Assembly (NCBI RefSeq): GCF_009659535.1
Contig: NZ_VJZZ01000003.1
Coordinates: forward strand, 248,001-312,000
Reading direction: 5' to 3'
From: Aggregicoccus sp. 17bor-14
GTDB taxonomy: Bacteria > Myxococcota > Myxococcia > Myxococcales > Myxococcaceae
DNA: 64,000 bases
The notes beneath the pieces were generated by a model. It searched no databases. It was not told the DNA's origin and saw only the letters and a program-made list of their open reading frames with translations. Both the position numbers and the translations under genes were made by a program. Positions 1,294 through 56,877 of this stretch are shown in pieces (position 1 is the first letter of the stretch; each line of letters starts with the position of its first letter).

Positions 1294-1317
1294 GGCGCTG
1301 CCTCTGTGTGGGGAGCT

Positions 1318-1353: not shown

Positions 1354-1379
1354 CAGGAAGGTGGGAGAAGGGAGGGGAG

Positions 1380-4300: not shown

Positions 4301-7300
4301 CCTCCTGCACCACGGCGCCGTCCATCACGAAGCGGTAGGCCGCGGCGGGCGCGCTCGCGCCCTGGTTGCGCACGGTGGCCTGCACGCTCACGCGCTCACC
4401 CTCGCGGGCCGAGCGGGGGCTGAGCGACACGAGCTGGGCGACGAGGTCCGGAAGCTGTGCGTCCGCGACGTCCAGCAGGAAGACGGCCTGGTTGTTCGAG
4501 CGGTCGCCGTCCAGCGCGAGCCCCTCGGGGTCGGCGGCGAGCTGCAGCTGGCGCTGCGAGGGCAGCGCGGTGAGCTGCACCGCCACGCGCGCGGCCTCAC
4601 CGGCAGCGAGCGCCGGCAGCGCCGTGCGGCCCTGGCCCTTCACCTCGAGCGCGCTCGCGGCGCAGGCCTGCTGGCCCACGTTGCGCACGCTCGCGGCGAG
4701 GGACACCGGAGCGCCCGCGGCCGGAGCGGCGGGGCTCGCCTGCAGGCTCGCGGCGTCCAGCGCGAGGTCGCACACCGCGGTGCCCGCGCCCACGAAGAGG
4801 CGGAAGGAGGCGGTGTTGTTCTCGTGGCCGGACTCCTCGATGGCGCCCTCGGCCTCCTCGGGGTTCACCACGGCCCAGATGCGGTGCTCGCCCTCCGGGT
4901 ACGCGTCCCAGAGGAGGCTCGCCGCCGCCTGGCCGGTGCGCGGAGCGAGCGGCCCCGCGGCGCGCGCCTCGCCCAGGCGCTTGCCGCCCTGCGCGGGGTC
5001 ACCGTCGTAGAACACCACGCGCACGTCGGAGGCGCTGAGCCCGCCCACGTTGCGCACGTTCGCCGTCAGCTGCACCTGCGCGCCCACGCGGCCCTGCGCG
5101 GGCAGCGCGGTGAGCGGAGTGGCGGCGAGCGCGAGGTCCGCCAGCAGGCGGCTCGGCTCCTTGTCGAACTGCTGGTTGTAGGTGTTGCCCTCGGGCTTGA
5201 GCCACCAGCGCAGGTCCGGGCTCACGCGCAGGTCGTCGCCCACCTGACCGCGGCGCAGGCTGCGCGTAGGCCAGGTGCTGGGCAGCTTCTTCCAGTGCGG
5301 GCTCGCGTACACGAGCACCTGGTTGCAGCCGTACACCGGGAACTGGTTCGCCTCCCACACCGCGCCGTCACCGTTGAGGCAGTCGCTGCTGCGCGAGACC
5401 ACCACCTCGGCGCGCGCCTCGGCGTCCGCGCCCAGCGCGGCCACCACCGGCACCTGCCGGTCGCTGTAGGCGAGGTCCCCGTCGATGGCGCCGCCGCTCA
5501 CCGGCATGGGGCTGGGGAAGGCGGTGAGGGGGCGGCCGCTGCGGCCGTCCAGCAGGAAGAGGCCGCGGTTGAGCGACTGCGGCAGCAGCTGCGGGCGGCC
5601 GAGCCCCAGCAGGTCCGCCGCCGAGGCCACCGACACGTCCGTGGACTCGAAGGGGACGATGGGCGTGTTCCACAGCGTCTGCAGCTCGGGCGAGAAGGCC
5701 GCGAAGTTCGGCTGCGTCGAGTTGTTGCTCACCGCCGGGTAGCTCAGGCCGTCCTGGCGCAGGGCGGCCGCGAGCATGCCGCGGTCGGAGGCCTCGTAGG
5801 CCACGCCCTGCCACTTGCGGTTGCCGGTGCGCAGGTCGTAGGCCTCGAGCGCGCCGCGGTACACGGGGATGACCAGCTCCGGCTGCCCGTCCAGGTCCAG
5901 GTCCACGATGGCGTGCTCACCCGCGCTGCTCACCGCGTCGCGCTTCCACAGCAGGCTGCCGCGGTGGTCCGTGAGGAACAGCTGCTGCGCGGCGACGAGC
6001 AGCTCCACGTCCCCGTCGCCGTCCACGTCCAGCGCATCCACGCGCACCGGGCTGCCGGTGCACGAGGCCGGCACGGGAGCAGCGTCCACGAGCGCGTGGC
6101 CGTCCTTGCCCGAGAAGCCGCGCAGGCGCTCGCCGTCGTAGTCCACCAGGTCGCTCACGCCGTCGGCGTCCAGGTCCGCGAGGCCGAGCGTGGCCCGGCG
6201 GCGCCAGCAGGCCCCCGCGTTGGAGACGGTGTCCTGGCTCCACTTCACCTGCCCGTCCGCGTCCAGCACGCTCAGGCGCTGGGTGCGCGCGGTGCCCGAG
6301 AGCCGCTCGGAGGCCACCACCACCTCCCCCTGCCCGTCACCGTCCAGGTCCGCGAGCACCACGTCGTCCAGCATGCTCAGGGCCTGGTGGCGCCAGCGCA
6401 GCGTGTGCCCGCCCTGCGCCGTGGGCGCGTACACGACGACGCCGCCCGAGACGCCCGCGGGGTCCAGCGTCACGGGCACGCTCGCGCGGTAGCCCACCAC
6501 CAGGTCCGGCGCCGCGCCCGGGTGCAGGCGCCCCACGCGCACCTCCTGCCCCGTCACGTAGCGCACGCCCGCGTAGGCGGGGCCCAGGTCCAGCTTCAGC
6601 AGCTCGCGCAGGAAGAGGTGGCGGCCGGCGAAGGTGCCGGTGGTGCTGTCGGTCAGCTGGCGCGCGCTGAAGCGGGTCAGCTTCGCGAACACCTCCACCG
6701 GGCCCTCCTTGCGCAGCCAGTCGAAGCTCGCGCTCGCGCTGCCGCTCGCGGGCACGGTGAGCGGGCTCTCGCCCAGCTTGCGCCCCTCGGAGAGGCCGGG
6801 GCGGCCCTGCCACCACTCCACGACGGTGCTGCCGGCGGTCGCCGCCCGGTTGTGCACCGTGGCGCTCAGGTGCACGCGCTCGCCCACGTCCGCGCCGGCG
6901 GGCGCGAAGGCCAGGTCCTCGGGCTGCAGGCTGAGCTGGATGGCCTCGGGCGAGACGGTGAGCTCCGCGCAGTTGTCGTTCTCGTTCTGCTCCTGCAGCG
7001 CGTTCTCCACGTCCACGCAGGCGCGCAGCGAGGGGGCCTGCGCGGGGCGCACCAGGGAGCCGAAGTCCACGCGCGCGCTGTCCCCGCCGGCGAGCTGCAC
7101 CGGCAGCCGCGCCCACACCCGGCCGTCCACCTGGTTCACCAGCTCCACGCTGCTGCTCACCGGCTCGCGCCCGCTGTTGCGCACGGTGGCGGTGAGGGCG
7201 AAGGTCTCCCCGGCCTTGGCGCTGCTGGGGTTCGCGCTGAGCTGATCGAGCGCCACCTCCACGCCCGGCTGCAGGCTCACGCTCACGCTGTGGGTGGCGG

Positions 7301-9128
7301 AGTTGTTGTTGCGGTTGGTGTCGTTGAGGCGGCGCTCGGGGTCCACCTCCACGCGCAGGCTGGTGCTCTTCTCCAGCGCGAGCTGCAGCTCCGCCTGAGC
7401 GCTCCCGCGCGCGGGCACGCTGGGCAGCTCCACCAGGCCCAGGGGCTGGGTGCTCACTCCGCCGGACTCGTACACGCCCACTGCCACGCGGTTCGCGTCG
7501 TTGGCGCCGGGGTTGGTCACCTGCACGCGCAGCGTGAAGGGCTGGCGCGCGCCCACCTCTCCGGGCGCGTGCGTGATGCCCGCGCTCACCACGGCCAGGT
7601 CCACCGGGAGGCTGGTGCCGGGATCGTAGAAGCGGAAGGCCGCGTTGTTCGTCTCGTCGCGCTCGGCGAGCACGTTGGCCGGGTCCACCACCGCGTGGAT
7701 GGCCGTGGCGCCGTTGGCCCCCGCGGCATCCCAGAGCACCGACACGGTGGTGCTCGCGTTGGAGGCGAGCCCCGCCGCCACGGTGGCCGTGCCCAGGCGC
7801 ACCCCGCCCACCGAGCCCTTGTACACGTCCACCGCCACGTCGCGCGCGAGCGTGCTGCCCACGTTGCGCACGGTGACGTCCACCCGCACCTGCGTGCCGC
7901 TCTGCTGCACGAAGGAGAGGGAGGTGTTGGAGACGCTGAGGTCCGAGCCGCGCTGCACTTCCATGCGCGCGGAGGCCGTGTTGTTCAGCTCGTCGAACTC
8001 CACCACGCTGCGCTCCGGGTCCACGAGCGCCTGCACGGTGTACGCGCCCTCGAGCCCATCGGTGGGGAGGCTCGCCGTCACGTGCGTGCGCGCGCCGCCC
8101 GCAAGCTGCGCGAGCGCGGCCTCCGCGAGCACCACCGGCTCACCGCCCGCGACGCTCGTGGCCACGAAGCGCACGCGGCCCGCCGGGGCGGCGAAGCCCG
8201 AGCGGTTCTCCACGTCCAGGCTCGCGAGCACGGGCTGCCCCTGCAGGGGCGCGGTGGGGCTGAGCAGCACCACGCCGCGGCCCGACTCGTCCGGCACCAC
8301 GCGCCAGTCGGGGCTCGCGCTCGCGAGCGCGCGCACCGCGATGGCGGTGAGCCGCACCGAGCCCGCCCAGCTGCCGTCCAGCGCCTGCAGACCCTCGAGG
8401 TTCGCGCGTGCGCGGGCAATGGCCTGTGCGTGGTCGCCGGGCGCGCCCACCAGCGCCACCACGGCCATGGCCGTCGCATCCGGCGTGCCGAAGGCGCCGT
8501 CCGCTCCCTGCGCGGCCTTCATGCAGGTGAGGGCGTGCTGCAGGGCGCCGTTCACCAGCACGTCGTGGGTGAAGTGGCGCAGCGCGAGCACCACCTCCGC
8601 GGTGAGCGGCACCGAGGCGCCGTTGTCCGCGTACGCGTAGCAGCCATCGGGGCGCGCGGAGAGCGCGAGCTGCCACGCGAGCGCGGAGTAGCTCGCGTAC
8701 GTCGCCTGGGGCAGGCCGCGCAGCGCACGCAGCGTGAGCGCGAGGTGCAGCGCGTCCGGCGCGTCGAAGCCGTCCGCGTGGCTCGTGCGCGCGACGACGT
8801 AGGGGGCGAGCCCCGCCACCGCGAGCTGCTGGCGCAGCACCAGCTCCGCGTCCACCTGGGCCGGCAGGTGGGTGAGGTACTGCTCGGCCCACAGCGCGGG
8901 CTCGCCCTGGCCCTGGCCCACGGCGCGCAGCGCCTCGAGCACGTCCGGGGTGGTGAGCGCCGGGTCCTCGCCGAGCGAGGCGCCGTAGCTGCCCGTCTCC
9001 GGGTCGCGGTACTGCTGCAGGAAGGCGAGGCCTCCGTCGATCGGCGCGGCGGCAGCGCCCGTCGCAACGGCCAGCGCCAGGCCGGCGGCTCCCCACAGCT
9101 TCAGTCCCTGCAGCGTCCTCGTCCTCAC
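1380..9128 (-). CDS. Giant secreted CARDB / FG-GAP / Ig-like protein
   Basis: The protein is 2582 aa. GTG at 9128 is chosen because it follows a GAGGGGGG ribosome site and opens directly on a signal peptide (RTRTLQGLK, hydrophobic run, ATGAAAA); the open frame extends 77 codons upstream without signal-peptide character. Approximate order: prenyltransferase/terpenoid-cyclase-like alpha-toroid repeats (30-275); about five CARDB adhesion-type beta domains (280-830); FG-GAP/VCBS-like propeller blades with DLDGDGQGE, DLDADGVSD, DVDGDGDVE and DLDLDGQPE calcium-type loops (845-1290); further CARDB-like domains (1320-1660); more beta domains; four Ig-like repeats each opening near a T-P-P/A-P motif (1990-2305); and a C-terminal domain (2310-2582) resembling the beta-helical end of some pilus-tip proteins (DUF7305-like, low certainty). 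It is probably surface-exposed or released. No enzymatic site was seen. Confidence 0.85.
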   Translation of the reverse strand: MRTRTLQGLKLWGAAGLALAVATGAAAAPIDGGLAFLQQYRDPETGSYGASLGEDPALTTPDVLEALRAVGQGQGEPALWAEQYLTHLPAQVDAELVLRQQLAVAGLAPYVVARTSHADGFDAPDALHLALTLRALRGLPQATYASYSALAWQLALSARPDGCYAYADNGASVPLTAEVVLALRHFTHDVLVNGALQHALTCMKAAQGADGAFGTPDATAMAVVALVGAPGDHAQAIARARANLEGLQALDGSWAGSVRLTAIAVRALASASPDWRVVPDESGRGVVLLSPTAPLQGQPVLASLDVENRSGFAAPAGRVRFVATSVAGGEPVVLAEAALAQLAGGARTHVTASLPTDGLEGAYTVQALVDPERSVVEFDELNNTASARMEVQRGSDLSVSNTSLSFVQQSGTQVRVDVTVRNVGSTLARDVAVDVYKGSVGGVRLGTATVAAGLASNASTTVSVLWDAAGANGATAIHAVVDPANVLAERDETNNAAFRFYDPGTSLPVDLAVVSAGITHAPGEVGARQPFTLRVQVTNPGANDANRVAVGVYESGGVSTQPLGLVELPSVPARGSAQAELQLALEKSTSLRVEVDPERRLNDTNRNNNSATHSVSVSLQPGVEVALDQLSANPSSAKAGETFALTATVRNSGREPVSSSVELVNQVDGRVWARLPVQLAGGDSARVDFGSLVRPAQAPSLRACVDVENALQEQNENDNCAELTVSPEAIQLSLQPEDLAFAPAGADVGERVHLSATVHNRAATAGSTVVEWWQGRPGLSEGRKLGESPLTVPASGSASASFDWLRKEGPVEVFAKLTRFSARQLTDSTTGTFAGRHLFLRELLKLDLGPAYAGVRYVTGQEVRVGRLHPGAAPDLVVGYRASVPVTLDPAGVSGGVVVYAPTAQGGHTLRWRHQALSMLDDVVLADLDGDGQGEVVVASERLSGTARTQRLSVLDADGQVKWSQDTVSNAGACWRRRATLGLADLDADGVSDLVDYDGERLRGFSGKDGHALVDAAPVPASCTGSPVRVDALDVDGDGDVELLVAAQQLFLTDHRGSLLWKRDAVSSAGEHAIVDLDLDGQPELVIPVYRGALEAYDLRTGNRKWQGVAYEASDRGMLAAALRQDGLSYPAVSNNSTQPNFAAFSPELQTLWNTPIVPFESTDVSVASAADLLGLGRPQLLPQSLNRGLFLLDGRSGRPLTAFPSPMPVSGGAIDGDLAYSDRQVPVVAALGADAEARAEVVVSRSSDCLNGDGAVWEANQFPVYGCNQVLVYASPHWKKLPSTWPTRSLRRGQVGDDLRVSPDLRWWLKPEGNTYNQQFDKEPSRLLADLALAATPLTALPAQGRVGAQVQLTANVRNVGGLSASDVRVVFYDGDPAQGGKRLGEARAAGPLAPRTGQAAASLLWDAYPEGEHRIWAVVNPEEAEGAIEESGHENNTASFRLFVGAGTAVCDLALDAASLQASPAAPAAGAPVSLAASVRNVGQQACAASALEVKGQGRTALPALAAGEAARVAVQLTALPSQRQLQLAADPEGLALDGDRSNNQAVFLLDVADAQLPDLVAQLVSLSPRSAREGERVSVQATVRNQGASAPAAAYRFVMDGAVVQEGVLPALLDGESVALSAELSAPSASNQVLLEVDPADQVPEFLETNNRAALPLAVEASGLALAVAANPASAGPETAIAGEVQLTNVLPSAREVWLSARALAEDGTVLGTLLPATQLLLEPQGGARQPLSWNTGRLPPGTYRLVAEATESGRLLARAEARVAVTGAAGASTEVVTDRGVYAPGRDVLISQRTSNLSLNTWLNGATVRVTVRDAAGAQLLASTRPVPPLPPAGHFDTNELFALSASLPPGTYTVQAEVRDAQGGVMDSREATFALQYAAEETVRAAVSVRSPFPLGPTLPVKVTLSNTGALPVAGRTLKVRLLDAAALAEQGAAAQGVDVPAGGTAVSTLSVPTAAVTEGQKLLVVELDGRTLERVLVSAALHVDTTPPTIRVAGVSDGQATNAAAVTPDVQVEDESRFSALMTLDGLPYANGTPVSAEGTHVLAVEAVDVEGNASELQLRFTLDRQAPALLLAGVAQGAVVHGPVTLTFSASDALSVTLKSTLDGTGDFSSGTSVSAEGDHLWTVTATDAAGNSATASRAFALDTTPPTLQVAGVSAGASYRLPVQPTVQVTDAHPGTTTVRVDGSPLAPGAQVSAEGPHTLEVEALDAAGNRTAQQLAFTLDFTLPELNVTGVSEGQVAEGFTITFAATDAALLGVSATLDGSPFNSGDTVSAPGAHELRVRAEDRAGNVREQRIGFTVKGGTLPRFDYAVCALNNLAIKDRANLSAAEPGQKASAGANGAANILSTAHLGGDFVVGGSLSLQGASGVDGRAYYGNQLAVARTAKLALGSERVTPAPSPCGCGYDVQAAMLRVRESNDNAKLQTLPESSKWLWWDGGLVVRGKRTLLLPSGRYFLPYVWVDGTSTLGAAPGAHVELYVEGSFAVSGDSRLQARPAEGSSLVLVSAADLERNGDYVTVPHAGDIALQVYAPTANLDLASNGRIFGAVVANEVAVRGSQALVQTPAAPAGAPRLRCE

Positions 9129-9377
9129 GGGTGCATCCCCCCTCGGCTGGCTCCAAGCGCGCGCACTCCCTTGGCGCGGCGCCCCTCTGGGCCAGCAGGC
9201 GGGCGGCAAGAAACAGTGTGCGGATGTGCGGGGAAAGGGGCCCCGGCAGTCCGGTCCTGGGGTGCGCCGAAGTGGCCGCAGCGCGCGCCCAGGCGCACCG
9301 CCCCCTCGGCGCCGGGGCAGGGAGGCGCGCGAGCGAGGGGGCCTCACGCGGCGCCCCACGGGGGCTCCCTGCCCGCC

Positions 9378-9383
9378 TAGACT
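9378..9383 (+). promoter_or_regulatory. Possible -10 element for a leaderless transcript
   Basis: TAGACT fits TAnnnT and ends 8 nt before the ATG at 9392. No Shine-Dalgarno sequence lies between them. Transcription starting at normal spacing would begin at the start codon. No convincing -35 is visible. The rest of the 9129-9391 gap separates two divergent genes and shows nothing else clear. Confidence 0.35.
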
Positions 9384-9391
9384 GCCCGCCC

Positions 9392-9907
9392 ATGACGACC
9401 GGCTACCTGTGCACCCGCTGCCGCGAGCAACACGCGGAGCTCCCCTTCTCCTACGAGGCCCCCGCTCCCACCGCCTGGAGCACCATCCCCGAGGCGGACC
9501 GCGCCAAGCGCGGCGTGCTGGGCGGCGAGCAGTGCGTCATCGACGGGCAGCACCACTTCGTGAAGGCGCGGCTGCTGCTGCCCGTGGCGGACTCGAAGGT
9601 GCCCTTCGAGTGGGTGGTGTGGGTGGCGCTGGACCCGAACGACTTCAAGCGCATGAGCGACCTGTGGAAGAAGTCGGGCCGCGAGAAGGAGCCCGGCTAC
9701 CCGGCGCTGCTCGCCACGCGCCTGCCCGGCTACGCGCGCGACACCGTGGCGCTGCAGGGCCTGCTGCGCACGCGGCCCGTGGGCGAGCGCCCCGTGCTGG
9801 AGCTCGAGCAGGTGGACCACCCGCTCGTGAACGAGCAGAAGGGCGGCATCACCCGCAAGCGCGTGCAGGAGCTCGCCGAGCTCGTGCGCCACGGGCCGCA
9901 GCAGTAG
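9392..9907 (+). CDS. DUF2199 domain protein
   Basis: This 171-aa soluble protein begins with MTTGYLCTRCREQHAELP, a short CxxC knuckle typical of DUF2199 proteins. It continues with the family's conserved parts: a YEAP-like segment, then EQCVIDGQHHFVKARLLLPV and FEWVVWVALDPNDFKRM. The length matches the family (about 150-180 aa). The biochemical role of DUF2199 is unknown; the CxxC suggests a single bound metal or a structural turn. There is no signal peptide. The gene stands alone, divergent from the giant protein gene and convergent with the quinone oxidoreductase. The start is supported by position; it has no ribosome site (see the TAGACT element). Confidence 0.8.
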   Translation: MTTGYLCTRCREQHAELPFSYEAPAPTAWSTIPEADRAKRGVLGGEQCVIDGQHHFVKARLLLPVADSKVPFEWVVWVALDPNDFKRMSDLWKKSGREKEPGYPALLATRLPGYARDTVALQGLLRTRPVGERPVLELEQVDHPLVNEQKGGITRKRVQELAELVRHGPQQ

Positions 9908-9914
9908 CGGCCGT

Positions 9915-9951
9915 GTCCTCCCTCTCCCCTGGGAGAGGGTCGGGGTGAGGG
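9915..9951. repeat. Dispersed palindromic repeat, copy 1
   Basis: CCCTCTCCC (9920-9928) and GGGAGAGGG (9931-9939) form a 9-bp stem, followed by TCGGGGTGAGGGA. A second element with the same plan (C-rich stem, then CGGGGTGAGGGG) lies at 17415-17456 in the same orientation. Similar short palindromes are scattered through many G+C-rich proteobacterial genomes. Here it sits between two convergent genes, where it could act as a bidirectional terminator. Confidence 0.6.
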
Positions 9952-9960
9952 AATCTCGCC

Positions 9961-10932
9961 CTACCCCGCCACCCGCAGCACGACCTTGCCCACTGCGCGC
10001 CGCTCCTGAAGCTCGCGCAGTGCCTCCGCGCCCCGCTCGAAGGGAAACACGCTCCCCACCAGCGGCCTCACCACGCCCGCGGCGGCGAGCTTCGCGAGCT
10101 CTGCGGCAATGTGCGGCGTGAGCGCGGGGTCCTGCGCGGCAAGGGCCCCCCACGCCACGCCGACCACGGACACGTTCTTGAGGAGCAGGCGGTTCACGGC
10201 GACCTCGGGGATGCGCCCACTGGTGAAGCCCACGACGAGGAGGCGGGCCTCGGGGGCGAGCACCTTGAGGCTGCGGTCGAACACGTCCCCACCCACCGGG
10301 TCCAGCACGAGGTCCGCGCCGCGCCCCTGCGTGAGCGACTTCACCTGGGCCACCCAATTCCCGGTGGACAGCACCACCTCGTGTGCACCGGCGCGCCGGG
10401 CGACCTCGGCCTTGCGCTCGTCGCTCACCACGGCAATCACGCGCGCCCCGCCGCCGCGCGCCACCTGCACGCTCGCGGTGCCCACGCCACCCGCAGCGCC
10501 GTGCACCAGCACGGTCTCTCCCGCGCGCAGGCCTCCGCGCCGGTGCAGCGCGAAGTGGGCCGTGTGGTAGTTCATCACCACGCCCGCGGCCTCCTCGAAG
10601 CTCCAGTCGGCGGGAATCGGGAACACCTGCTCGGGCGCGGCGACCACCTGCTCCGCGAAGCCGCCGAGCCAGGTGAGCGCCATCACCCGGTCACCTGGGT
10701 CGAAGCCCGAGCCCGCGGGCGCCTCGCGCACGGTGCCCGACACCTCCACGCCCGGCACGAAGGGCAGCTCCGGCTTCATCTGGTAGCGGCCCTGGGTGAG
10801 CAGCAGGTCCGGGAAGCTCACGCCCGCGGCCGCGACATCGATGAGCACCCCGCCCGAGGCGTCCGGCGCGGGCACCTCCACGAGGCGCAGGGAATCGGGT
10901 CCGCTCAGCTCGGTGCAGTGCAGGGCGCGCAT
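9961..10932 (-). CDS. NAD(P)H:quinone oxidoreductase, zinc-free MDR family
   Basis: The protein is 323 aa and belongs to the medium-chain dehydrogenase/reductase superfamily, quinone oxidoreductase branch. It has a GroES-like N-terminal half (MRALHCTELSGPDSLRL, then PFVPGVEVSGTV and FDPGDRVMAL), and a Rossmann half with the nucleotide loop HGAAGGVGTASVQVA near residue 150. The catalytic and structural zinc ligands of alcohol dehydrogenases are absent, as expected for this branch. It probably reduces quinones or enones with NADPH in the cytoplasm. ATG 10932 is preferred over an in-frame ATG 16 codons upstream because GGGAGG lies 6 nt before it and the family motif starts there. Single-gene unit. 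Confidence 0.9.
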   Translation of the reverse strand: MRALHCTELSGPDSLRLVEVPAPDASGGVLIDVAAAGVSFPDLLLTQGRYQMKPELPFVPGVEVSGTVREAPAGSGFDPGDRVMALTWLGGFAEQVVAAPEQVFPIPADWSFEEAAGVVMNYHTAHFALHRRGGLRAGETVLVHGAAGGVGTASVQVARGGGARVIAVVSDERKAEVARRAGAHEVVLSTGNWVAQVKSLTQGRGADLVLDPVGGDVFDRSLKVLAPEARLLVVGFTSGRIPEVAVNRLLLKNVSVVGVAWGALAAQDPALTPHIAAELAKLAAAGVVRPLVGSVFPFERGAEALRELQERRAVGKVVLRVAG

Positions 10933-46354: not shown

Positions 46355-47374
46355 GTGGGCACTTACCCCTTCCAGGACCGGCCGCCGTTGGTGGCCGTTA
46401 CACCGCAGGGGATGTACTGCGCGGCCGGGGACTTCCACATCGACCCCTGGCGCCCGGTGCCCCGCGCCCTCATCACCCACGCGCACGGCGACCACGCGCG
46501 CACCGGCAGCGAGCACTACCTCGCGGCGGAGCCCGGTCGGCCCCTCCTGCGCAAGCGCCTCGGCGACGTGGCGCTGCAGACGCTGCCCTACGGCGAGAAG
46601 CTCGAGGTCAACGGCGTCACCGTGAGCTTCCACCCCGCGGGGCACGTGCTGGGCAGCGCGCAGATCCGCCTCGAGCACCGCGGTGAGGTCTGGGTCGTGA
46701 GCGGCGACTACAAGCGCACGCCGGACCCCACCTGCGCGGCCTTCGAGCCGGTGCGCTGCGACACCTTCATCACCGAGGCCACCTTCGGCCTGCCCATCTA
46801 CCGCTGGGACGACCCGCGCCTCGTGGCGAAGGACATCCTCGCCTGGTGGGAGGGCAACCGCGCCGCGGGCAAGAGCTCGGTGCTCTTCTGCTACGCGCTG
46901 GGCAAGGCGCAGCGCATCCTCGCGCACCTCGGCGAGCTCTCGGACGGCTACGCGTACCTGCACGGCGCGGTGAACGCGCTCGTCGCCTGCTACCGCGAGG
47001 CGGGCGTGCCCATGCTGCGCACCCAGCTCGTCTCCGAGGCCGACAAGGCCAACGCCTTCCACGGCGCGCTCGTGCTCGCGCCGCCGAGCGCCGGCGGCAG
47101 CACCTGGATGCGCCGCTTCGGCGAGTACGAGACGGGCTTCGCCTCCGGGTGGATGCGCGTGCGCGGCAACCGGCGCCGGCGCGGCTTCGACCGCGGCTTC
47201 GTGCTCAGCGACCATGCGGACTGGCCCGAGCTCTTGCAGAGCATCGCCGAGAGCGAGGCGAGCCGCGTGCTGGTGACGCACGGCTTCAGCGAGCCGCTCG
47301 CGCGCTACCTCAAGGAGAAGGGCGTGGACGCGGCGCCGCTCGCCACCCCCTTCGAAGGCGAGGCGGAGGACTAG
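46355..47374 (+). CDS. Ligase-associated DNA exonuclease (metallo-beta-lactamase fold)
   Basis: The 339-aa protein of the beta-lactamase-fold/beta-CASP group is the nuclease that accompanies ATP-dependent ligase in this repair cassette. The metal motif THAHGDHARTGS (HxHxDH) lies near residue 45, HPAGHVLGSAQI is the second His site, and VWVVSGDYKR gives the Asp. ITEATFGLPIYRW, LFCYALGKAQR and VLSDHADWPEL complete the core. It is expected to trim DNA ends before ligation. GTG 46355 has TAAATC about 9 nt upstream and no ribosome site, so it may be leaderless. It overlaps the ligase gene by 1 nt (TAGTG). Confidence 0.88.
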   Translation: MGTYPFQDRPPLVAVTPQGMYCAAGDFHIDPWRPVPRALITHAHGDHARTGSEHYLAAEPGRPLLRKRLGDVALQTLPYGEKLEVNGVTVSFHPAGHVLGSAQIRLEHRGEVWVVSGDYKRTPDPTCAAFEPVRCDTFITEATFGLPIYRWDDPRLVAKDILAWWEGNRAAGKSSVLFCYALGKAQRILAHLGELSDGYAYLHGAVNALVACYREAGVPMLRTQLVSEADKANAFHGALVLAPPSAGGSTWMRRFGEYETGFASGWMRVRGNRRRRGFDRGFVLSDHADWPELLQSIAESEASRVLVTHGFSEPLARYLKEKGVDAAPLATPFEGEAED

Positions 47375-48969
47375 TGCGCGCACTCGCGGACCTCTACGAC
47401 GCGCTGGACACCACTACCTCCACCAACGCGAAGGTGGAGGCGCTGGTGCGCTACTTCGAGCGCACGCCGCCGCAGGACGCCGCGTGGGCGCTGTACTTCC
47501 TCACCGGGCGGCGCCTCAAGCGGCTCATCGCCACGAAGTACCTGGTGGGCTGGACGCTGGAGCTCTCCGGCATCCCCGAGTGGCTCTTCGACGAGACCTA
47601 CGCGAGCGTGGGCGACCTGGCCGAGGTCATCGCCCTGCTGCTGGACGCGCAGCTCCCCGCGCACGCGGGCGAGGACATGCCGCTCTCGTGGTGGCTCGAG
47701 GAGCGCATCCTCCCCCTGCGCGAGCTCGGCCCCGAGGAGCAGCGCGAGCGCGTCACCGCCTGGTGGAAGGTGCTGCCGCGCCGCGAGCTGTTCTTGCTCA
47801 ACAAGCTGCTCACGGGCGAGCTGCGCGTGGGCGTGAGCGACACGCTCGTCGTGCGCGCGCTCGCGCAGCGCGCGGGCCTGCCGCCGGCCACCGTGAGCCA
47901 CCGGCTGATGGGCACCTGGAGCCCGTCCCGCACCTTCTTCGAGCGGCTCGTCTCGCCGGACGTCTCGGATGCGGACGGCAGCCGCCCCTACCCCTTCTAC
48001 CTCGCGAGCCCGCTCGAGCAGCCGCCCTCGGAGCTGGGCGCGCTCGAGGACTGGCTCGTCGAGTGGAAGTGGGACGGCATCCGCGGGCAGCTCATCCGCC
48101 GCGGCGGCAGCGTGTACCTGTGGAGCCGCGGCGAGGAGCTCATCACCGAGCGCTTCCCGGAGATCTCCGAGGCGGCGCGCGCCCTGCCGGACGGCACCGT
48201 CATCGACGGCGAGGTGCTCGCGTACGAGAACGGCCAGCCTCTGCCCTTCGCGCGACTGCAGCGGCGCATCGGGCGGCAGAAGCTCACCGCCAAGGTGCTC
48301 GCCGAGGCCCCCGCGGCCTTCATGGCCTACGACCTGCTCGAGGAGGCTGGAGAGGACCTGCGCGAGAAGCCCCTGCGCGAGCGCCGGGCGCGCCTGGAGC
48401 GGCTGCTCGAGGGACGCACCGCCTTCCCCATCTCGCCCGCCGTCGCGGCCGAGAGCTGGGAGCAGCTCGCCCAGGTGCGCGAGGAGGCGCGCTCGCGCAG
48501 CGTGGAGGGCTTCATGCTCAAGCGCCTCGAGTCGCGCTACCAGCACGGGCGCAAGCGCGGCGACTGGTGGAAGTGGAAGATCGACCCCTTCACCGTGGAC
48601 GCGGTGCTGCTCTACGCGAACCCGGGCCACGGCCGGCGCGCGAGCCTCTACACCGACTACACCTTCGCGGTGTGGAACGGCCCCGAGCTGCAGCCGGTGG
48701 CCAAGGCCTACTCGGGCCTCACCGACGAGGAGATCCTCAAGCTGGACCGGTGGATCCGCGCGCACACCCGCGAGAAGTTCGGCCCGGTGCGCTCGGTGGA
48801 GCCGCACCACGTCTTCGAGCTGCACTTCGAGGCCATCGCCCCGAGCCCGCGCCACAAGTCCGGCGTGGCGCTGCGCTTCCCGCGCATTGCGCGCTGGCGC
48901 ACGGACAAGAGGCCGCAGGACGCGGACACGCTGGACCGGCTCAAGGGGCTCCTGCATGCCCCGGTTTGA
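47374..48969 (+). CDS. ATP-dependent DNA ligase
   Basis: The 531-aa enzyme seals DNA nicks with ATP. An N-terminal DNA-binding domain (1-215) leads to the nucleotidyltransferase domain with motif I EWKWDGIRGQ, Lys232 being the adenylated residue. Then come VYLWSRGEE, VIDGEVLAY, FMAYDLLE and SVEGFMLKR (motifs III-IV), GDWWKWKID (motif V), and a C-terminal OB domain (VDAVLLYANPGHGRRASLY to FPRIARWRTDKRPQDADTL). It is the bacterial ligase branch linked to Lhr-type helicases rather than LigD. GTG 47374 overlaps the exonuclease stop; the end overlaps the helicase start by 14 nt. No promoter is expected inside. Confidence 0.95.
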   Translation: MRALADLYDALDTTTSTNAKVEALVRYFERTPPQDAAWALYFLTGRRLKRLIATKYLVGWTLELSGIPEWLFDETYASVGDLAEVIALLLDAQLPAHAGEDMPLSWWLEERILPLRELGPEEQRERVTAWWKVLPRRELFLLNKLLTGELRVGVSDTLVVRALAQRAGLPPATVSHRLMGTWSPSRTFFERLVSPDVSDADGSRPYPFYLASPLEQPPSELGALEDWLVEWKWDGIRGQLIRRGGSVYLWSRGEELITERFPEISEAARALPDGTVIDGEVLAYENGQPLPFARLQRRIGRQKLTAKVLAEAPAAFMAYDLLEEAGEDLREKPLRERRARLERLLEGRTAFPISPAVAAESWEQLAQVREEARSRSVEGFMLKRLESRYQHGRKRGDWWKWKIDPFTVDAVLLYANPGHGRRASLYTDYTFAVWNGPELQPVAKAYSGLTDEEILKLDRWIRAHTREKFGPVRSVEPHHVFELHFEAIAPSPRHKSGVALRFPRIARWRTDKRPQDADTLDRLKGLLHAPV

Positions 48970-51532
48970 GCGCGTGGACGGCAAGCTGCGCCCGGTGGTG
49001 AAGGGCGCGAAGCGTCCGCGCGCCCAGAAGCGCCCCGCCCCTCCTCCCGCCCCGCCCGGTGACGCCACGCCGCCCATGGACGCGCTGCGCGCCTGGTTCT
49101 CGGAGCGCGGCTGGAAGCCCTACCCCTTCCAGGAGGAGGCGTGGAGCGCGTACGCGCGCGGCGAGAGCGGGCTCATCCACGTGCCCACCGGCGCAGGCAA
49201 GACCTACGCGGCCTACCTCGCCCCGCTCGCGGAGGTGGCCGAGCGCGGCGAGCGCGGCCTGCAGATCCTCTACCTCACGCCCTTGCGCGCGGTGAGCCGC
49301 GACATCGAGCTCGCCCTCCATGCGCCCCTCACGGCGCTGCAGGCCGACATCGACGTGCAGAGCCGCACGGGCGACACCTCGAGCAGCCTGCGCGCGCGCC
49401 AGCGCGAGCGCCTGCCCGAGGTGCTCATCACCACGCCCGAGTCGCTCTCGCTGCTGCTCGCGGGCGAGCGCGCGGCGGAGAGCTTCTCGCAACTGCGTTG
49501 CATCATCGTGGACGAGTGGCACGAGCTGCTCTCCACCAAGCGCGGCACCCAGGTGGAGCTCGCGCTCGCGCGGCTGCGCCACTTCGCGCCCGGGGTGCGC
49601 ACCTGGGCCCTCTCCGCCACGCTCGCGAACCTGGAGGAGGCGGCGCAGGCGGTGGTCGGTGTAGGCGCAAAGGCCACCCGCGTGCGCGCCACGCTCGAGC
49701 GCCCGCTGGAGATCCAGACGCTCATCCCGGAGCGCGTGGACGCCTTCCCCTGGGCGGGGCACCTGGGCTTCAGCATGCTGGAGAAGGTGTCCGCGTGGCT
49801 GGACCCCGCGCAGAGCACGCTGCTGTTCTGCAACACGCGCAGCCAGGCGGAGCGCTGGTACGAGGGCCTCCGCTTCCAGCACCCCGAGTGGGACGACCTG
49901 CTCGCGCTGCACCACGGCTCGCTGGACCGCGCGGAGCGCGAGCGCGTGGAGGCGGGGCTCAAGGACGGGCGGGTGCGCCTCGTGGTCTGCACCTCGTCCT
50001 TGGACCTGGGCGTGGACTTCGGGCCGGTGGAGCGGGTGGTGCAGATCGGCAGCCCCAAGGGCATCGGCCGCACGCTGCAGCGCGCCGGGCGCAGCGCGCA
50101 CCGCCCCGGCGCGACCAGCCGGCTGCTCTTCGTGCCCACGCACGCGCTCGAGCTGGTGGAGATGGCGGCCGCGCGCGAGGCGCTCGCGCGCGGCGAGGTG
50201 GAGGCGCGCGCGCCGCTCTCCAAGCCCCTGGACGTGCTCGCCCAGCACCTCGTCACCTGCGCGCTGGGCGGCGGCTTCACGCGCGAGGCCCTGCGCGCGG
50301 AGGTCCGCACCGCGCTCTCCTACCAGCACCTCACGGACGAGGAGTTCGAGTGGACGCTCGCGCTGGTGAAGGAGGGCGGCCCCACCCTGCGCGCCTACCC
50401 GGACTTCCGCCGCGTGGTGGAGACGGCGGACGGGCGCCTCACCGTGGCGGACGCGCGCATCGCGCGGCTGCACAAGCTGAACATCGGCACCATCTCCTCG
50501 GACGCCACCGTGCTCCTGCAGTACTGGAACGGGGCGAAGCTGGGCTGCATCGAGGAGGGCTACGTCGGGCGCCTTCGCGCAGGGGACGTGTTCCTCTTCG
50601 GCGGCCGCGCGCTCGAGTTCCAGCGCATGAAGGACATGACGGCGTACGTGCGCCCTGCGCGCAAGCGCCCCACCCAGACGCCGCGCTGGCACGGCGGGCG
50701 CCTGCCCCTGTCGCCCTCGCTCGCCGCCGCGCTGCGCCGCACGCTGCAGGCGGCGCGCGTGGGGGACGTGACGAGCGACGAATTGGCCGCGGCCTGGCCG
50801 GTGCTCGAGGCGCAAGCGCGGCTCAGCCGCATCCCCGGCGAGGGCGCGCTCCTCGTCGAGACGCTGCGCACCCGCGAGGGCCACCACCTCTTCCTCTACC
50901 CCTTCGAGGGCCGGCTCGTGCACGAGGGGCTCGCGGCCCTGCTCGCGCTGCGCCTCACCCGCGTGCAGACCGCCACCTTCAGCCTCTCGGTGAACGACTA
51001 CGGGCTCGAGCTGCTCACCCCCACGCCCTTCCCCTTCGAGGAGGCGCTCACCCCGGCCCTCTTCAGCCGCGAGCACCTGACGCAGGACATCCTGGAGAGC
51101 GTGAACCTGGGCGAGCTCGCGCGCCGCACCTTCCGCGACATCGCGCGCGTGGCGGGCCTCGTGCTGCCGGGGCTCCCGAGCGCGCGCAAGAGCACCCGCC
51201 AGGTGCAGGCGAGCAGCGGCCTGCTCTACGACGTCTTCCAGAAGTACGACCCGGAGAACCTCCTGCTGCAGCAGGCGCGCCGCGAGGTGCTCGAGCAGCA
51301 CTTCCAGCAGAGCCGCCTCGCCTCCGCGCTCGCCCGGCTGGAGGGCAGCGCGCTCGAGCGCGTCACCCTGCGCCGCCCCACCCCGCTCGCCTTCCCGCTC
51401 CTGGTGGAGCGCATCAGCGCGAGCCTCTCCAACGAGTCCCTCCTCGAGCGCGTGGAGCGACTGAAGGCCCGATGGACCCGCGACGAACCTCCGAGCCTGG
51501 CCGCCCCTCAGGGCGACAGCCTCTTCGCGTGA
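48956..51532 (+). CDS. Ligase-associated DEXH helicase (Lhr type)
   Basis: The 858-aa superfamily 2 DNA helicase belongs to the short Lhr branch that accompanies ATP-dependent ligase. An N-terminal basic segment precedes the Q-motif-like YPFQEEAW. Walker A is VPTGAGKTYAAYLAP with Lys82, followed by YLTPLRAVSRD, VLITTPESLSLLL, VDEWHELL (DEWH box), WALSATLANLEEAA, LFCNTRSQAERWY, LVVCTSSLDLGVDFG and LQRAGRSAHRPG (motif VI). The region after about residue 450 forms the winged-helix and Lhr-core accessory part. It is expected to unwind 3'-tailed duplexes in repair. Starts inside the ligase gene and ends in a 4-nt overlap (GTGA) with the phosphoesterase. Confidence 0.93.
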   Translation: MPRFERVDGKLRPVVKGAKRPRAQKRPAPPPAPPGDATPPMDALRAWFSERGWKPYPFQEEAWSAYARGESGLIHVPTGAGKTYAAYLAPLAEVAERGERGLQILYLTPLRAVSRDIELALHAPLTALQADIDVQSRTGDTSSSLRARQRERLPEVLITTPESLSLLLAGERAAESFSQLRCIIVDEWHELLSTKRGTQVELALARLRHFAPGVRTWALSATLANLEEAAQAVVGVGAKATRVRATLERPLEIQTLIPERVDAFPWAGHLGFSMLEKVSAWLDPAQSTLLFCNTRSQAERWYEGLRFQHPEWDDLLALHHGSLDRAERERVEAGLKDGRVRLVVCTSSLDLGVDFGPVERVVQIGSPKGIGRTLQRAGRSAHRPGATSRLLFVPTHALELVEMAAAREALARGEVEARAPLSKPLDVLAQHLVTCALGGGFTREALRAEVRTALSYQHLTDEEFEWTLALVKEGGPTLRAYPDFRRVVETADGRLTVADARIARLHKLNIGTISSDATVLLQYWNGAKLGCIEEGYVGRLRAGDVFLFGGRALEFQRMKDMTAYVRPARKRPTQTPRWHGGRLPLSPSLAAALRRTLQAARVGDVTSDELAAAWPVLEAQARLSRIPGEGALLVETLRTREGHHLFLYPFEGRLVHEGLAALLALRLTRVQTATFSLSVNDYGLELLTPTPFPFEEALTPALFSREHLTQDILESVNLGELARRTFRDIARVAGLVLPGLPSARKSTRQVQASSGLLYDVFQKYDPENLLLQQARREVLEQHFQQSRLASALARLEGSALERVTLRRPTPLAFPLLVERISASLSNESLLERVERLKARWTRDEPPSLAAPQGDSLFA

Positions 51533-52167
51533 AGGGCGAGGCCCTGGAGCTGCTCGCCGCGCGCGCCCTGTACTGGCCCGCGGGCGGGGGCGGCGCGGGC
51601 GTGCTCGCCGTCGCGGACCTGCACTGGGGCAAGACGGAGAGCTTCCACCAGCACGGCATCGCCCTGCCCACCGGCGTGCTCCAGGACGACCTGCAGCGCC
51701 TCTCGGCCGCCCTGCAGGGCACGGGCGCCCGCCGCCTCCTCCTGCTCGGAGACCTCGTGCACTCGCGCGCGGGGCTCACCCCCGCCGTCGTCTCCGAGGC
51801 CGCCGCCTGGCGCGCCCGCCACCCCGAGGTGCAGGTGGTGCTGGTGCGCGGCAACCACGACCGGCACGTGCCCCGGCTTCCCGAGGCCTGGGGCATCGAG
51901 GACGTGCCCGGCCCGCTGGACGAGGGCCCCTTCCGCTTCGCCCACCACCCCGAGCCCGCCGAAGGCCGCTACGCCTGGGCCGGGCACCTGCACCCCACGG
52001 TGCGCCTGGGCGGGGGCGCGGACCGGCTGCGCCTGCCCTGCTTCCACCTCGGCCGCGAGGTGGGCGTGCTGCCCGCCTTCAGCGCCTTCACCGGCGGCCA
52101 GGACGTGACGCGCCGCGCCGGCGAGCGCGTGTACGCCGTGGCCGGGTCGGAGGTCGTGCGGGTATGA
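51529..52167 (+). CDS. pdeM: Ligase-associated metallophosphoesterase (PdeM)
   Basis: The 212-aa calcineurin-like phosphoesterase is the fourth member of the ligase cassette. Metal-binding motifs in order: VLAVADLHWGKTESF, LLLGDLVHSRAG, VLVRGNHDRHVPRL, and WAGHLHPTVRLGG (the GHxH end). RLPCFHLG and VLPAFSAFTGG are typical of the branch. It should act on DNA or RNA phosphodiesters during end processing. GTG 51529 gives a 4-nt overlap with the helicase. ATG 51472, with a GAAGG upstream and a longer N-terminus containing QPLRVKGE, is a good alternative that would overlap the helicase by 61 nt. Translationally coupled to the HNH gene by ATGA. Confidence 0.9.
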   Translation: MKGEALELLAARALYWPAGGGGAGVLAVADLHWGKTESFHQHGIALPTGVLQDDLQRLSAALQGTGARRLLLLGDLVHSRAGLTPAVVSEAAAWRARHPEVQVVLVRGNHDRHVPRLPEAWGIEDVPGPLDEGPFRFAHHPEPAEGRYAWAGHLHPTVRLGGGADRLRLPCFHLGREVGVLPAFSAFTGGQDVTRRAGERVYAVAGSEVVRV

Positions 52168-52520
52168 GCCGCGCCAAGCGCCGCCGCATCCTGGACATCA
52201 TCGCCACGGACGCCACCTTCGCGCGCGTGGAGCACCGCGGCCGCGAGGTGTGGCAGGGCAAGTGCCTGCACTGCGGGACGCACCTGGTGGTGGGCACGGA
52301 CGGCGAGCCGGTGAGCCGCGCCACCATCGAGCACATCGTGCCGCGGGTGCACGGCGGCACGGACGCGCTGGAGAACCTCGGGCTCGCCTGCGCGCGCTGC
52401 AACGCCGGCAAGGGCGTGCGCCACGATCGCAACTACCTGCGCGACCCGCGCGCCCGCGAGCTCGTGGAGCGCCTGCTGCAGCGCCGCCGCGAGCGCTGGC
52501 GCGCGCCCGACCTTCGATAG
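52164..52520 (+). CDS. HNH endonuclease
   Basis: The 118-aa protein begins with a basic helix (SRAKRRRILDIIA) and holds a compact HNH site: GKCLHCGTHL (first Cys pair), ATIEHIVPRVHGGTDALENL (catalytic E-H-I-V-P-x-x-x-G-G, and the Asn), then ACARCNAGKG with the second Cys pair. This is the zinc-supported HNH type. The C-terminus is Arg-rich, suited to DNA contact. Its ATG overlaps the pdeM stop, so it is coupled to the ligase-exonuclease-helicase-phosphoesterase set and probably works with it. HNH genes are not a standard part of that cassette. The gene ends the operon. Confidence 0.9.
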   Translation: MSRAKRRRILDIIATDATFARVEHRGREVWQGKCLHCGTHLVVGTDGEPVSRATIEHIVPRVHGGTDALENLGLACARCNAGKGVRHDRNYLRDPRARELVERLLQRRRERWRAPDLR

Positions 52521-52770: not shown

Positions 52771-53020
52771 CCGCGCGCTTTTTCGGGCAGGGAGGGTCGA
52801 GGGTCCTGCCCGCGGCGACAACCCGTAATGATCTTGAGAAGCCAGACGTGATCGCCACTCGTGCGCCAGCACTCGGAGCCATCGCAACGTCCGGCGGCTC
52901 ATGGCATATGCGGTCCGCGCTCCTTCCGCGCAACTCGAGTCGCTGCGTAAGCCCTTCCGGTCTGAAGTCATTGAAGAAGACATCTCCCGAAGTGGTCCAC
53001 TGCTTGCCCCCGGTCCTGGT

Positions 53021-53680
53021 ATGAGCGGTCCTCTCTTCCCACGCTGGACGAACACGGTGTCGCGGCTGTCTGCCGCGGCCCTCCTTGCGATCCCCGCCAT
53101 CGCGATCGGCGGCCTCATGGCCTACGTCCGCTCGCCCTTGGTGACCAACCAGTTCCACCCGGTGGAGCAGCCCATCGAGTTCGATCACCGCCATCACGCG
53201 GGTGACGAGCAGATCGACTGCCGCTACTGCCACTGGACGGTGGAGAACTCCCCGTCCGCCGGCATCCCGTCCACCACGGTGTGCGTCAGCTGCCACGCGC
53301 AGGTGTGGAACAAGAGCCCGTACCTCAACGAGGTGCGCAAGGCCTTCTTCACCGACCAGCCCATCCCCTGGGTGCGGGTGCACAACCTGCCGGACTTCGT
53401 CTACTTCAACCACTCCATCCACGTGAACAAGGGCGTCGGCTGCGTCACCTGCCACGGCCGCGTGGACCAGATGGGCGCCGTGTACCAGCAGGCCCCGCTC
53501 ACCATGGGCTGGTGCCTGGACTGCCACCGCAACCCCGCGCCGAACCTGCGTCCGGCCGAGGCCATCACCTCCATGACCTGGAAGCCGCCCGAGGGCGTGG
53601 ACCCGGTCGAGTACGGAAAGACGCTCGCGGCCCAGTACGACGTCCACTCGCGCACGAGCTGCACCACGTGCCACCGCTGA
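53021..53680 (+). CDS. actA: Alternative complex III subunit ActA, pentaheme cytochrome c
   Basis: The 219-aa subunit carries electrons within alternative complex III, the quinol:electron acceptor oxidoreductase that replaces bc1. It has one N-terminal transmembrane helix (VSRLSAAALLAIPAIAIGGLMAYV) and five heme c sites: CRYCH, CVSCH, CVTCH, CLDCH and CTTCH. The helix keeps the heme domain on the periplasmic side. ATG 53021 (MSGPLFPRWTN) is chosen because the transmembrane helix follows at normal distance; the frame extends 40 codons upstream without family character. First gene of a long, tightly packed operon; actB starts 23 nt after its stop. Confidence 0.92.
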   Translation: MSGPLFPRWTNTVSRLSAAALLAIPAIAIGGLMAYVRSPLVTNQFHPVEQPIEFDHRHHAGDEQIDCRYCHWTVENSPSAGIPSTTVCVSCHAQVWNKSPYLNEVRKAFFTDQPIPWVRVHNLPDFVYFNHSIHVNKGVGCVTCHGRVDQMGAVYQQAPLTMGWCLDCHRNPAPNLRPAEAITSMTWKPPEGVDPVEYGKTLAAQYDVHSRTSCTTCHR

Positions 53681-53703
53681 ACCCGAAGCACCCTGGCGCC
53701 CCC

Positions 53704-56700
53704 ATGAAGGACACCTCCCCTACTTCGTTCGCGCTCCCTGTCGTGAGTGACGCGACCCCGGCCCCCGCCAGCAGCCATGGCGCGGACCACACGCACGACG
53801 CCGTCGGCGAGATGTTCGACGCCGCCGCCAGCGTGCCCGCGGCCTCCGGCACCACGCCGGCCGGCTACGGCAAGACCTACTGGCGCTCCATCGAGGAGAA
53901 GCTGGCCACCCCCGAGTTCCTCGAGGCCACCCGCCCCGAGTTCCCCGAGGGCGCGGACCTGCCCCCCTCCGGCTTCATGCGCCGCGAGTTCATGCAGCTG
54001 CTCGGCGCGAGCCTCGCGCTCGCCGGCGTGAGCGCCTGCAGCACCCGCCCCGTGAACGAGAAGATGCTGCCCTACACCAAGACCCCCACGGGTCTGGCGC
54101 CGGGCAACCCGCTCACCTACGCGAGCGCCTTCACCTTCGGCGGCCACACCAGCGGCCTGCTCGTCACCGCCTGGGAGGGTCGCCCCACCAAGGTGGAGGG
54201 CAACCCCCAGCACCCGGTGAACCAGGGCGCCGCCGGCCCCTTCGAGCAGGCGCTGCTGCTCAGCCTCTATGACCCGCAGCGCGCCCGCGTGCTGCGCCAG
54301 GGCAAGAGCCCCAAGGCGCTGCGCACGCTCGCCGAGGACGTGGCCGCGCTGGTGAACAAGGCCGCCGCGACCGACGGCGGCGCGAAGATCCGCTTCCTCG
54401 TGGAGCCCAACGCGGGCCCCACCCTGCAGGACCTGCGCAAGCGCATCGGGCAGAAGCTGCCCCAGGCCAAGTTCGTGGAGTTCGTGGGCGTGACCCAGGA
54501 CCCGGCCAGCGAGGGCGCCAACGCGCTCTTCGGCCAGAGCCTCACCGCGCTCTACGACTTCAGCCAGGCGGACGTCATCCTCAGCCTGGACGCGGACTTC
54601 CTCGAGAGCCGCCCGGCGAACCTCGCCTACGCGCGCGCCTTCGCCAACCGCCGCGACCCGAACGTGGGCGAGCTCAACCGCCTCTACGTGGCCGAGCCCC
54701 GCATGACCATCACCGGCGGCATGGCGGACCACCGCCTGCGGGTGAAGAGCGCCGAGGTCGCCGCCGTGGCGGCCGCCGTGCTGCAGGCCGTGGGCGGCCC
54801 CGCCGCGCAGCTGGCCTCCGCCGCGGGCAAGTTCCCGCTCCCGCCCAGCGCCCAGAAGTTCGTGGCCACCGTCGCCGCGGACCTCAAGAGCAAGGCGGGC
54901 CGCAGCGTCGTCGTCGCCGGCGAGCGCATGCCGGCGGCCGTGCACGCCATGGCGCACGCCATCAACGCGGCGCTGGGCAGCGTGGGCAAGACCGTCACCT
55001 TCGTGCCGGCCCCGGGCAGCCAGCCCACCGGCCCGAGCGCCCTGCGCGCGCTCGCCGAGGAGCTCAAGAGCGGCGCCGCGGACACCCTGGTCATCACCGC
55101 CTGGAACCCCGTGTACGCGGCCCCCGCGGACGCGGGCCTCGCCGAGCTGCTGGACGCGACGAAGAACGCGAACCGCGGCAACCTGCGCGTGCTCTACACC
55201 AGCATGCACGAGGACGAGACCAGCGCCCACGCGGACTGGTTCGTCCCGGCCGCGCACCCCATGGAGACCTGGGCGGACGGCCGCTCCATCGACGGCACCG
55301 TCACCCTCGGCCAGCCGCTCATCCAGCCGCTCTACAACGGCGTCTCCGAGAGCGAGCTGCTCGCGCTGTTCCTCGGCAACAACCCGAACGGCGCGCTGCC
55401 CAGCAGCTACGCCCTGCTGCGCGACTACTGGCGCACCCAGGCGGGCGCCGGTGACTTCGAGACCGCGTGGGAGACCTGGGTGGGCGAGGGCTTCGTGCCC
55501 CGCTCCGCCGCCCAGGCCGTGCAGGTGACCCCGGACTACGGCCGCGCCGCCCAGGCGCTCGCCGCCTACCAGCAGCCGGCCGGGGGCGAGCTCGAGATCA
55601 ACTTCGTCCCCGACTACAAGGTCTACGACGGCCGCTTCGCCAACAACGCCTGGCTGCAGGAGCTCGCGCACCCGGTCACCAAGATGACCTGGGACAACGC
55701 CGCGCTGCTCAGCCCGGCCACCGCGGGCGCGAAGAACCTCGAGGCCGGCGACGTGGTCACCATCCAGTACGGCGGCCGCAGCCTCGAGGCCCCCGTGTGG
55801 ATCGTGCCCGGCCACGCGGACGACACCCTCACGCTCGCCATCGGCTACGGCCGCACCGGCCTGCACGAGACCGTGGCGCAGGGCGTGGGCGTCAACGCCA
55901 ACCTGCTGCGCCGCACGGACGCCCCCTGGTTCGACGGCGGCGCCACCGTGACCAAGGTGCGCAAGAGCTACAAGTTCTCGCTCACCCAGATCCACTGGCG
56001 CATGGAGGGCCGCCCGCTCGCGCTCGACATGAGCTACGACGAGTTCAAGAAGGAGCCCAAGGTCCTCGAGCGCGTGCGCGGCGAGCAGGTGAACCTGCTC
56101 GCGGACTACCCCTACGAGGGCTACAAGTGGGGCATGGCCATCGACCTGGCCCGCTGCACCGGCTGCGCCGCGTGCGTCGTCGCCTGCCAGGCCGAGAACA
56201 ACATCCCGGTCGTGGGCAAGGAGCAGGTGGGCAAGGGCCGCGAGATGGCCTGGCTGCGCATCGACCGCTACTTCTCCGGTGACGAGCGCGACCCGGAGAT
56301 GGTGATGCAGCCGGTGATGTGCGTGCACTGCGAGAAGGCGCCCTGCGAGTACGTGTGCCCCGTGAACGCCACCGTCCACTCGGACGAGGGCCTCAACGAG
56401 ATGGTGTACAACCGCTGCGTCGGCACCCGCTACTGCTCGAACAACTGCCCCTACAAGGTCCGCCGCTTCAACTACCTGCACTTCACCGGCGGCAAGACCG
56501 CGCCGGAGAAGATGCTGATGAACCCGGACGTCACGGTGCGCGCGCGCGGCGTGATGGAGAAGTGCACGTACTGCGTGCAGCGCATCGAGCGCACCCGCAT
56601 CAACTCGCGCATCGAGAAGCGCAGCATCCGCGAGGCGGAGCTCAAGACCGCCTGCCAGCAGACCTGCCCCACCCAGGCCATCGTGTTCGGCACGCTGCAG

Positions 56701-56877
56701 GTCCCCAAGGGCGAGAAGCCCTGGGCCGTGGCGGCGCTGCACGAGGACCCGCGTGCCTACAAGCTGCTGCACGAGCTCGGCACCCGCCCGCGCACCAGCC
56801 ACCTGGTCCGCGTCCGCAATCCCCACCCGGACCTCGTCGCCGAGGCTCCCCAGGCTGAGCACGAAGGAGGCCACTGA
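53704..56877 (+). CDS. actB: Alternative complex III subunit ActB, Mo-oxidoreductase-like fused to FeS protein
   Basis: This 1057-aa fusion has a molybdopterin-oxidoreductase-like part (about 115-790), which in ActB proteins is known to bind no molybdenum cofactor, and a ferredoxin-like part (about 795-1035). The latter has four Cys groups for one [3Fe-4S] and three [4Fe-4S] clusters: [37 protein letters not shown] with CTYC, and CQQTCP. It passes electrons from quinol oxidation. A twin-arginine/lipobox-like element ([20 protein letters not shown]) lies at about residues 93-112, after an N-terminal region with a short His-rich stretch (SHGADHTHD). ATG 53704 gives the complete family N-terminus. 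Ends 3 nt before actC. Confidence 0.95.

Follow-up and report, generated by a model that had tools for sequence, protein, structure and literature searches.

The HNH nuclease gene adjoining the ligase-Lhr repair cassette in Aggregicoccus sp. 17bor-14 probably belongs to a chromosomal place and not to the cassette

The stretch of DNA analysed here (the window) comprises 64,000 nucleotides (nt) of contig NZ_VJZZ01000003.1 from Aggregicoccus sp. 17bor-14 and carries a four-gene ligase-associated DNA damage response cassette followed immediately by a gene for a small HNH nuclease, whose relation to the cassette is the subject of this study. All five genes are read on the forward strand. EXO, a ligase-associated MBL-fold exonuclease (46355..47374), starts with GTG and scores 493.5 bits against TIGR04122 (cut-off 325), and the ATP-dependent DNA ligase LIG (47374..48969), also with a GTG start, overlaps it by 1 nt and scores 635.9 bits against TIGR04120 (cut-off 400). 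LHR (48956..51532, ATG start, 14-nt overlap with LIG) encodes a DEXH helicase of the Lhr-core type with 1095 bits against TIGR04121 (cut-off 850) and its product also contains WH_Lhr and DEAD_assoc domains. The metallophosphoesterase/endonuclease PdeM (51529..52167) scores 220.9 bits against TIGR04123 (cut-off 150) and is given a GTG start with a 4-nt overlap (GTGA) with LHR; this start is a choice, an alternative in-frame ATG at 51472 giving a 61-nt overlap. The four genes are adjacent and all exceed their NCBIfam equivalog cut-offs, which confirms the cassette and the overlapping junctions (1, 14 and 4 nt) recognised in the initial annotation. The HNH gene (52164..52520, 118 amino acids, PF01844 42.5 bits against a cut-off of 21.4) starts with ATG and is, as had also been noted, tied to the end of the cassette by a 4-nt overlap (ATGA) with PdeM.

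The gene is a member of the HNH endonuclease superfamily, the PF01844 match of its product being above the gathering score and the expected His, Asn and Cys residues being present. The motif consists of paired CxxC and the sequence EH..P...GG.....NL..AC.RCN, and an alignment of 12 relatives revealed the invariant residues C34/C37, C76/C79, E56-H57, P60, G64-G65, N71, N80 and K83-G84. We take the core to be of the H-N-N type, the functions of these residues (His and Asn in catalysis, Cys in zinc binding) being presumed from the HNH family. AlphaFold modelled the protein with high confidence (mean pLDDT 91.0, pTM 0.84), and when the model was run through Foldseek its top match was the HNH part of EcoKMcrA (PDB 6ghc, E 6.6e-3, TM 0.41), with other matches to the HNH parts of Cas9 and to GmeHNH (4h9d, probability 0.95) and no match with E ≤ 0.001. 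By profile the nearest solved structures are AceCas9 (8d2k, E 1.1e-9) and an IscB (6.9e-8). From motif and modelled fold together, the most likely product is a metal-dependent DNA endonuclease of the H-N-N type, either one that nicks or one that cuts both strands.

When comparing the protein with known systems, GmeHNH, a Mn-dependent HNH nicking endonuclease, is likewise a small stand-alone HNH protein with the core motif (profile E 0.0014), but only about 30–70 residues align and the family of the window protein has its own conserved parts, N-terminal TDxTFE...W.GKC and C-terminal R..RWR. The HNH domains of IscB, Cas9d and AceCas9 are the best relatives by sequence profile (IscB NCBIfam E 1.3e-9), whereas the window protein stays below the NCBIfam cut-offs (37.6 vs 175 bits) and, being only 118 residues long, has no RuvC or guide-RNA machinery. 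EcoKMcrA is a modification-dependent restriction enzyme with a modified-base-binding domain, for which the window protein is too short, and the global match is weak and extends over a portion of its 283-residue chain.

With the HNH protein, PdeM and the ligase as queries, 195 genomes of the phylum were searched, and strong HNH orthologues proved to be concentrated in a single clade, which comprises 64 genomes within the family of the window's genome (groups g1, g2, g4–g8 and g19). The HNH count rests on 66 rows, equal to 66 genomes, with E ≤ 2.6e-14; weaker HNH-domain matches and two second copies (G061:C2 and G098:C46) were left out and two pieces of the HNH gene in G062 were merged. The PdeM count consists of 58 rows, 55 over the cut-off and 3 partial, leaving out the second piece in G085 and the first piece of the split gene in G120. 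The HNH gene adjoins PdeM in 42 of the 64 clade genomes, 39 of them with PdeM over the cut-off and three with a partial PdeM, either split by a contig end (G120) or in a cassette that is partly deleted (G124 and G126). It is kept with the cassette elsewhere in ten genomes (G060–G065 and G090–G093, that is all six of g2 and all four of g6) and without any cassette in six (G072, G073, G119, G128, G130 and G131), while the cassette is kept without HNH in five (G076, G078, G084, G086 and G088) and one genome (G099) has neither. With 10 moved, 6 cassette-less and 5 HNH-less cases, the HNH gene has thus not been gained, lost and moved jointly with the cassette, and by our own tally it looks intact in 46/55 clade genomes with the cassette vs 8/9 without. 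The initial annotation had considered that the linkage might be peculiar to this strain; it is instead common in the clade and spans several genera.

Some loci of these genomes show peculiarities of their own. In L196 (G124, 8477-10439) the cassette is decaying, with fragments of EXO, LHR and PdeM and an internal stop, and in L197 (G126, 4954-8294) LHR is lost together with the first half of PdeM, and EXO, LIG and HNH remain. Among the relocated cassettes, LHR in L084 (G064, 5524-7566) matches in two pieces with about 90 residues (195-283) missing, perhaps a broken or deleted helicase, and in L087 (G093, 908-7079) about 3.6 kb lies between EXO and LIG. L124 (BNCN01000001.1) is titled Comamonas sp. 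KCTC 72670 and holds a Myxococcus-typical locus in the same place as in G125; the label looks wrong.

When analysing the four g19 genomes that lack the cassette, the sequence GAGGTGTAGG was identified directly before the HNH start, and it is identical to the end of PdeM (Glu-Val-stop) in the linked relatives. This scar was matched by blastn over 18/18 and 21/22 nt in two of the genomes and is shorter, and recognised by eye, in the other two. A PdeM remnant before HNH was also sought in g4, g2 and g6 and none was found. In the six pairs formed by the four cassette-less g19 genomes the dN/dS of HNH is 0.038-0.089, that is strong purifying selection; for comparison, it is 0.052-0.372 in 21 cassette-bearing g19 pairs and 0.080-0.249 in ten g5 pairs. 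Decay on the HNH side was observed as well, since truncated or fossil HNH genes occur in some cassette-bearing genomes of the Corallococcus group. After an intact PdeM, about 20 codons of HNH remain in L088 and about 8 in L200, L089 retains only the HNH start and L090 has nothing recognisable (G078, which is L199, lay outside this detailed reading). Of the broken genes, that of G082 is cut after residue 37, codon 5 is a stop in that of G075, 29 residues with the catalytic stretch among them are missing from that of G062, and that of G090 lacks the N-terminus.

The junction between PdeM and HNH was measured in 39 of the 42 linked genomes, with G096, G097 and G129 left out. The ATGA overlap was found in the window's genome only (1/39) and the other 38 junctions are gaps of 1–7 nt. 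Since all 39 lie between -4 and +7 nt, the tight junction is old and its ATGA form is specific to this genome. Judging from this spacing, the HNH gene is probably co-transcribed with the cassette in the linked genomes. A sigma-70 scan of the region identified no promoter- or terminator-like site, although such a scan says little for this group, and an Rfam search of the same region gave no match.

Downstream of HNH, also on the forward strand, lies what we take, from its gene content and sequences, to be an alternative complex III (ACIII) operon, the labels of its cytochrome c and ActB genes being presumed in the same way. The first gene, for a multihaem cytochrome c, lies within an open reading frame with the limits 52901..53680, and the open reading frame 53281..56877 holds the ActB-type molybdopterin/iron-sulfur subunit, whose true start is further in. 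According to the gene calls, HNH keeps its position some 0.5 kb ahead of the ACIII operon whether the cassette is adjacent, elsewhere or absent. In 103/103 loci whose HNH is at least 68% identical, the match to the ACIII cytochrome c begins 476-646 nt downstream of HNH; these loci are partly redundant, the same genomes having been fetched repeatedly, and G096, G097 and G129 are not among them. The HNH gene belongs to a chromosomal place, not to the cassette.

The order of events was addressed with trees of chosen rows, 43 for ActB and 35 for the ligase, which do not cover every genome. In the ActB tree the window's genome takes the basal position in the clade (support 81), from which the linked state of HNH and PdeM is probably ancestral for the clade. 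Losses of the cassette fall on separate branches of this tree, in g4 and in the four g19 genomes, together with the partial deletions in G124 and G126, and the HNH losses of G084 and of G076/G078/G086/G088 are also found on separate branches. In the ligase tree the ligases of relocated cassettes form a single group within the ingroup, which indicates that the cassette was probably moved and not newly acquired, and this was counted as one relocation. In the ActB tree G140 joins on a long branch immediately outside the clade (support 80), and in its locus L186 (5580-12220) EXO and LIG lie upstream of the ACIII operon, with further genes in between and no LHR, PdeM or HNH there. The intervening genes are presumably a penicillin-amidase-like gene, by which EXO and LIG are separated, and an amidohydrolase-like gene before ACIII. 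This one genome suggests that the cassette may have preceded HNH at the ACIII site.

Outside the clade, 82 genomes with PdeM were available. Of these, 69 belong to the same class as a Rhodovarius genome (G203, which is included), 12 others (8 + 4) are HNH-bearing Lysobacterales or belong to the class of a Luteimonas genome, and the last is G189. No HNH was found by profile or motif beside PdeM in any of the 82, each having at least 1455 nt of room downstream. A scan of HNH loci in named genomes covered the best 80 of 105 relatives, 22 of which are clade members, and the cassette was adjacent to HNH in none of the 58 outside-clade loci among them; the nearest case is L166, with PdeM and LHR about 8 kb from HNH on the opposite strand. 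The initial annotation had proposed a survey for HNH in the fifth position of the cassette, and this arrangement occurs within the clade but was not found in independent lineages. Among outside-clade genomes of the phylum, 14 have a ligase over the cut-off and 8 a strong HNH, both occurring only in G155 and there on different contigs, and G189 has PdeM and lacks HNH. PdeM over the cut-off was detected somewhere in 9 of the 14 outside-clade HNH genomes tested, showing that HNH and PdeM can coexist unlinked. The neighbours of HNH outside the clade vary by group, with one set in Luteimonas (presumably kbl/tdh-like) and another in Sorangium (presumably globin/YjbQ/PdxH-like), and this variation suggests no functional partner.

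Other forms of the cassette were also seen. In the distant cassette of G189 (L091, 12848-14599) about 1.75 kb lies between LHR and LIG, and in family f2 (for example G021, G023 and G030; loci L184, L185 and L188) EXO and LIG form pairs with neither LHR nor PdeM in the vicinity, a two-gene version of the cassette.

We consider it very probable that the HNH protein is a stand-alone, chromosomal and vertically inherited nuclease, functionally independent of the cassette and probably co-transcribed with it here. The gene would have been situated between the cassette and the ACIII operon ever since this clade of myxobacteria had its ancestor, and its start, within a few nt of the PdeM stop, would probably lead to co-transcription and to translation from a Shine-Dalgarno-like stretch in the last codons of PdeM. 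Comparison shows that the two are dispensable to each other, as loss, relocation or breakage has struck each of them several times with the other still in place, and the overlap would represent compaction of neighbours and no proof of a common pathway. The frequent loss or relocation of one partner beside an intact other argues for an independent neighbour and not a fifth repair part. The initial annotation had concluded from the coupling that the nuclease takes part in the same process; this does not stand, as the dissociation is repeated in both directions, HNH surviving the loss or relocation of the cassette and the cassette surviving the decay of HNH, and as no linkage was found outside the clade (0/82 and 0/58).

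Some observations speak against an independent neighbour. In all 39 linked genomes measured the junction is strikingly tight, from the overlap to a gap of 7 nt, and it has persisted through several genera, which would look like what useful co-expression gives. Two DNA-acting enzymes side by side are suggestive in themselves, and the relocation in g2 and g6 was probably one event, so that there are fewer independent separations than genomes. One alternative is a facultative fifth member, an HNH gene co-induced with the cassette where the two are linked, providing an optional nicking step, for instance to open the strand for the Lhr helicase and the exonuclease ahead of ligation, and used for something else elsewhere. 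The HNH protein would then introduce a nick that helicase, exonuclease and PdeM enlarge before ligation, a scheme we regard as unlikely, with a separate role to account for the survival of HNH without the cassette. Tight junctions in 42/64 clade genomes, the early-branching position of the linked state and the fact that HNH and the cassette proteins are all DNA-acting enzymes agree with such a facultative role. However, the intactness of HNH is independent of the cassette, fossil HNH genes lie next to cassettes that are still intact, and linkage of HNH to the cassette was found in none of the outside-clade genomes and loci surveyed, which makes the facultative role as a whole improbable.

Mobile elements often carry HNH domains, and the gene could be thought of as a leftover from a phage, an intron or a defence island. 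Weak PADLOC matches to PtuB (best E 1.8e-8) and many PHROG HNH matches point in that direction, but the latter are all partial domain matches, at least 80% of HNH is matched by 0/50,697 phage and 0/72,556 plasmid records, and 5/6 plasmid matches are annotated as IscB. The conserved place, the purifying selection and the lack of PtuA or another defence partner adjacent leave very little probability for such an origin. It was rejected after the PADLOC, PHROGs, phage and plasmid searches, and the mobile-element leftover considered in the initial annotation thus gives way to a gene with conserved linkage that is not a mobile remnant. An identity as PtuB of the Septu system was likewise rejected, the match being weak only and the flanking genes being PdeM and ACIII with no PtuA ATPase. 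A functional tie to the ACIII operon, the constant neighbour of HNH, is also highly improbable: the order of HNH, about 0.5 kb and ACIII cytochrome c holds in 103/103 loci, but the gap of about 480-650 nt, the other housekeeping genes adjoining outside-clade HNH relatives and the absence of a biochemical logic stand against it.

A ligase-associated DNA damage response cassette of LigB, EXO, Lhr-core and MPE (the latter being PdeM) was reportedly described in 2018 by Ejaz and Shuman in JBC. The window has the same order, EXO-LIG-LHR-PdeM, with all four genes over the equivalog cut-offs, and differs by the unrelated fifth gene, HNH, after PdeM. An operon with the same content as the four-gene cassette of the window is described in PMC10140301. 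MPE is located near bacterial lhr in 276/319 genomes according to PMC8301817, whose text lacks the term HNH. In full-text literature, with most subscription journals outside the coverage, no description was found of HNH beside the Lhr-ligase cassette and no paper joining an HNH endonuclease with alternative complex III. The cassette is already known, and the proposed five-gene unit is not supported as a functional unit.

The locus provides a clean counter-example to inferring function from overlapping start and stop codons, as a junction of the ATGA type breaks both ways in close relatives and sequence scars show what was lost. At the same time a small, conserved and uncharacterised family of HNH nucleases is marked out in myxobacteria, and the natural HNH-minus and cassette-minus relatives make its function testable.

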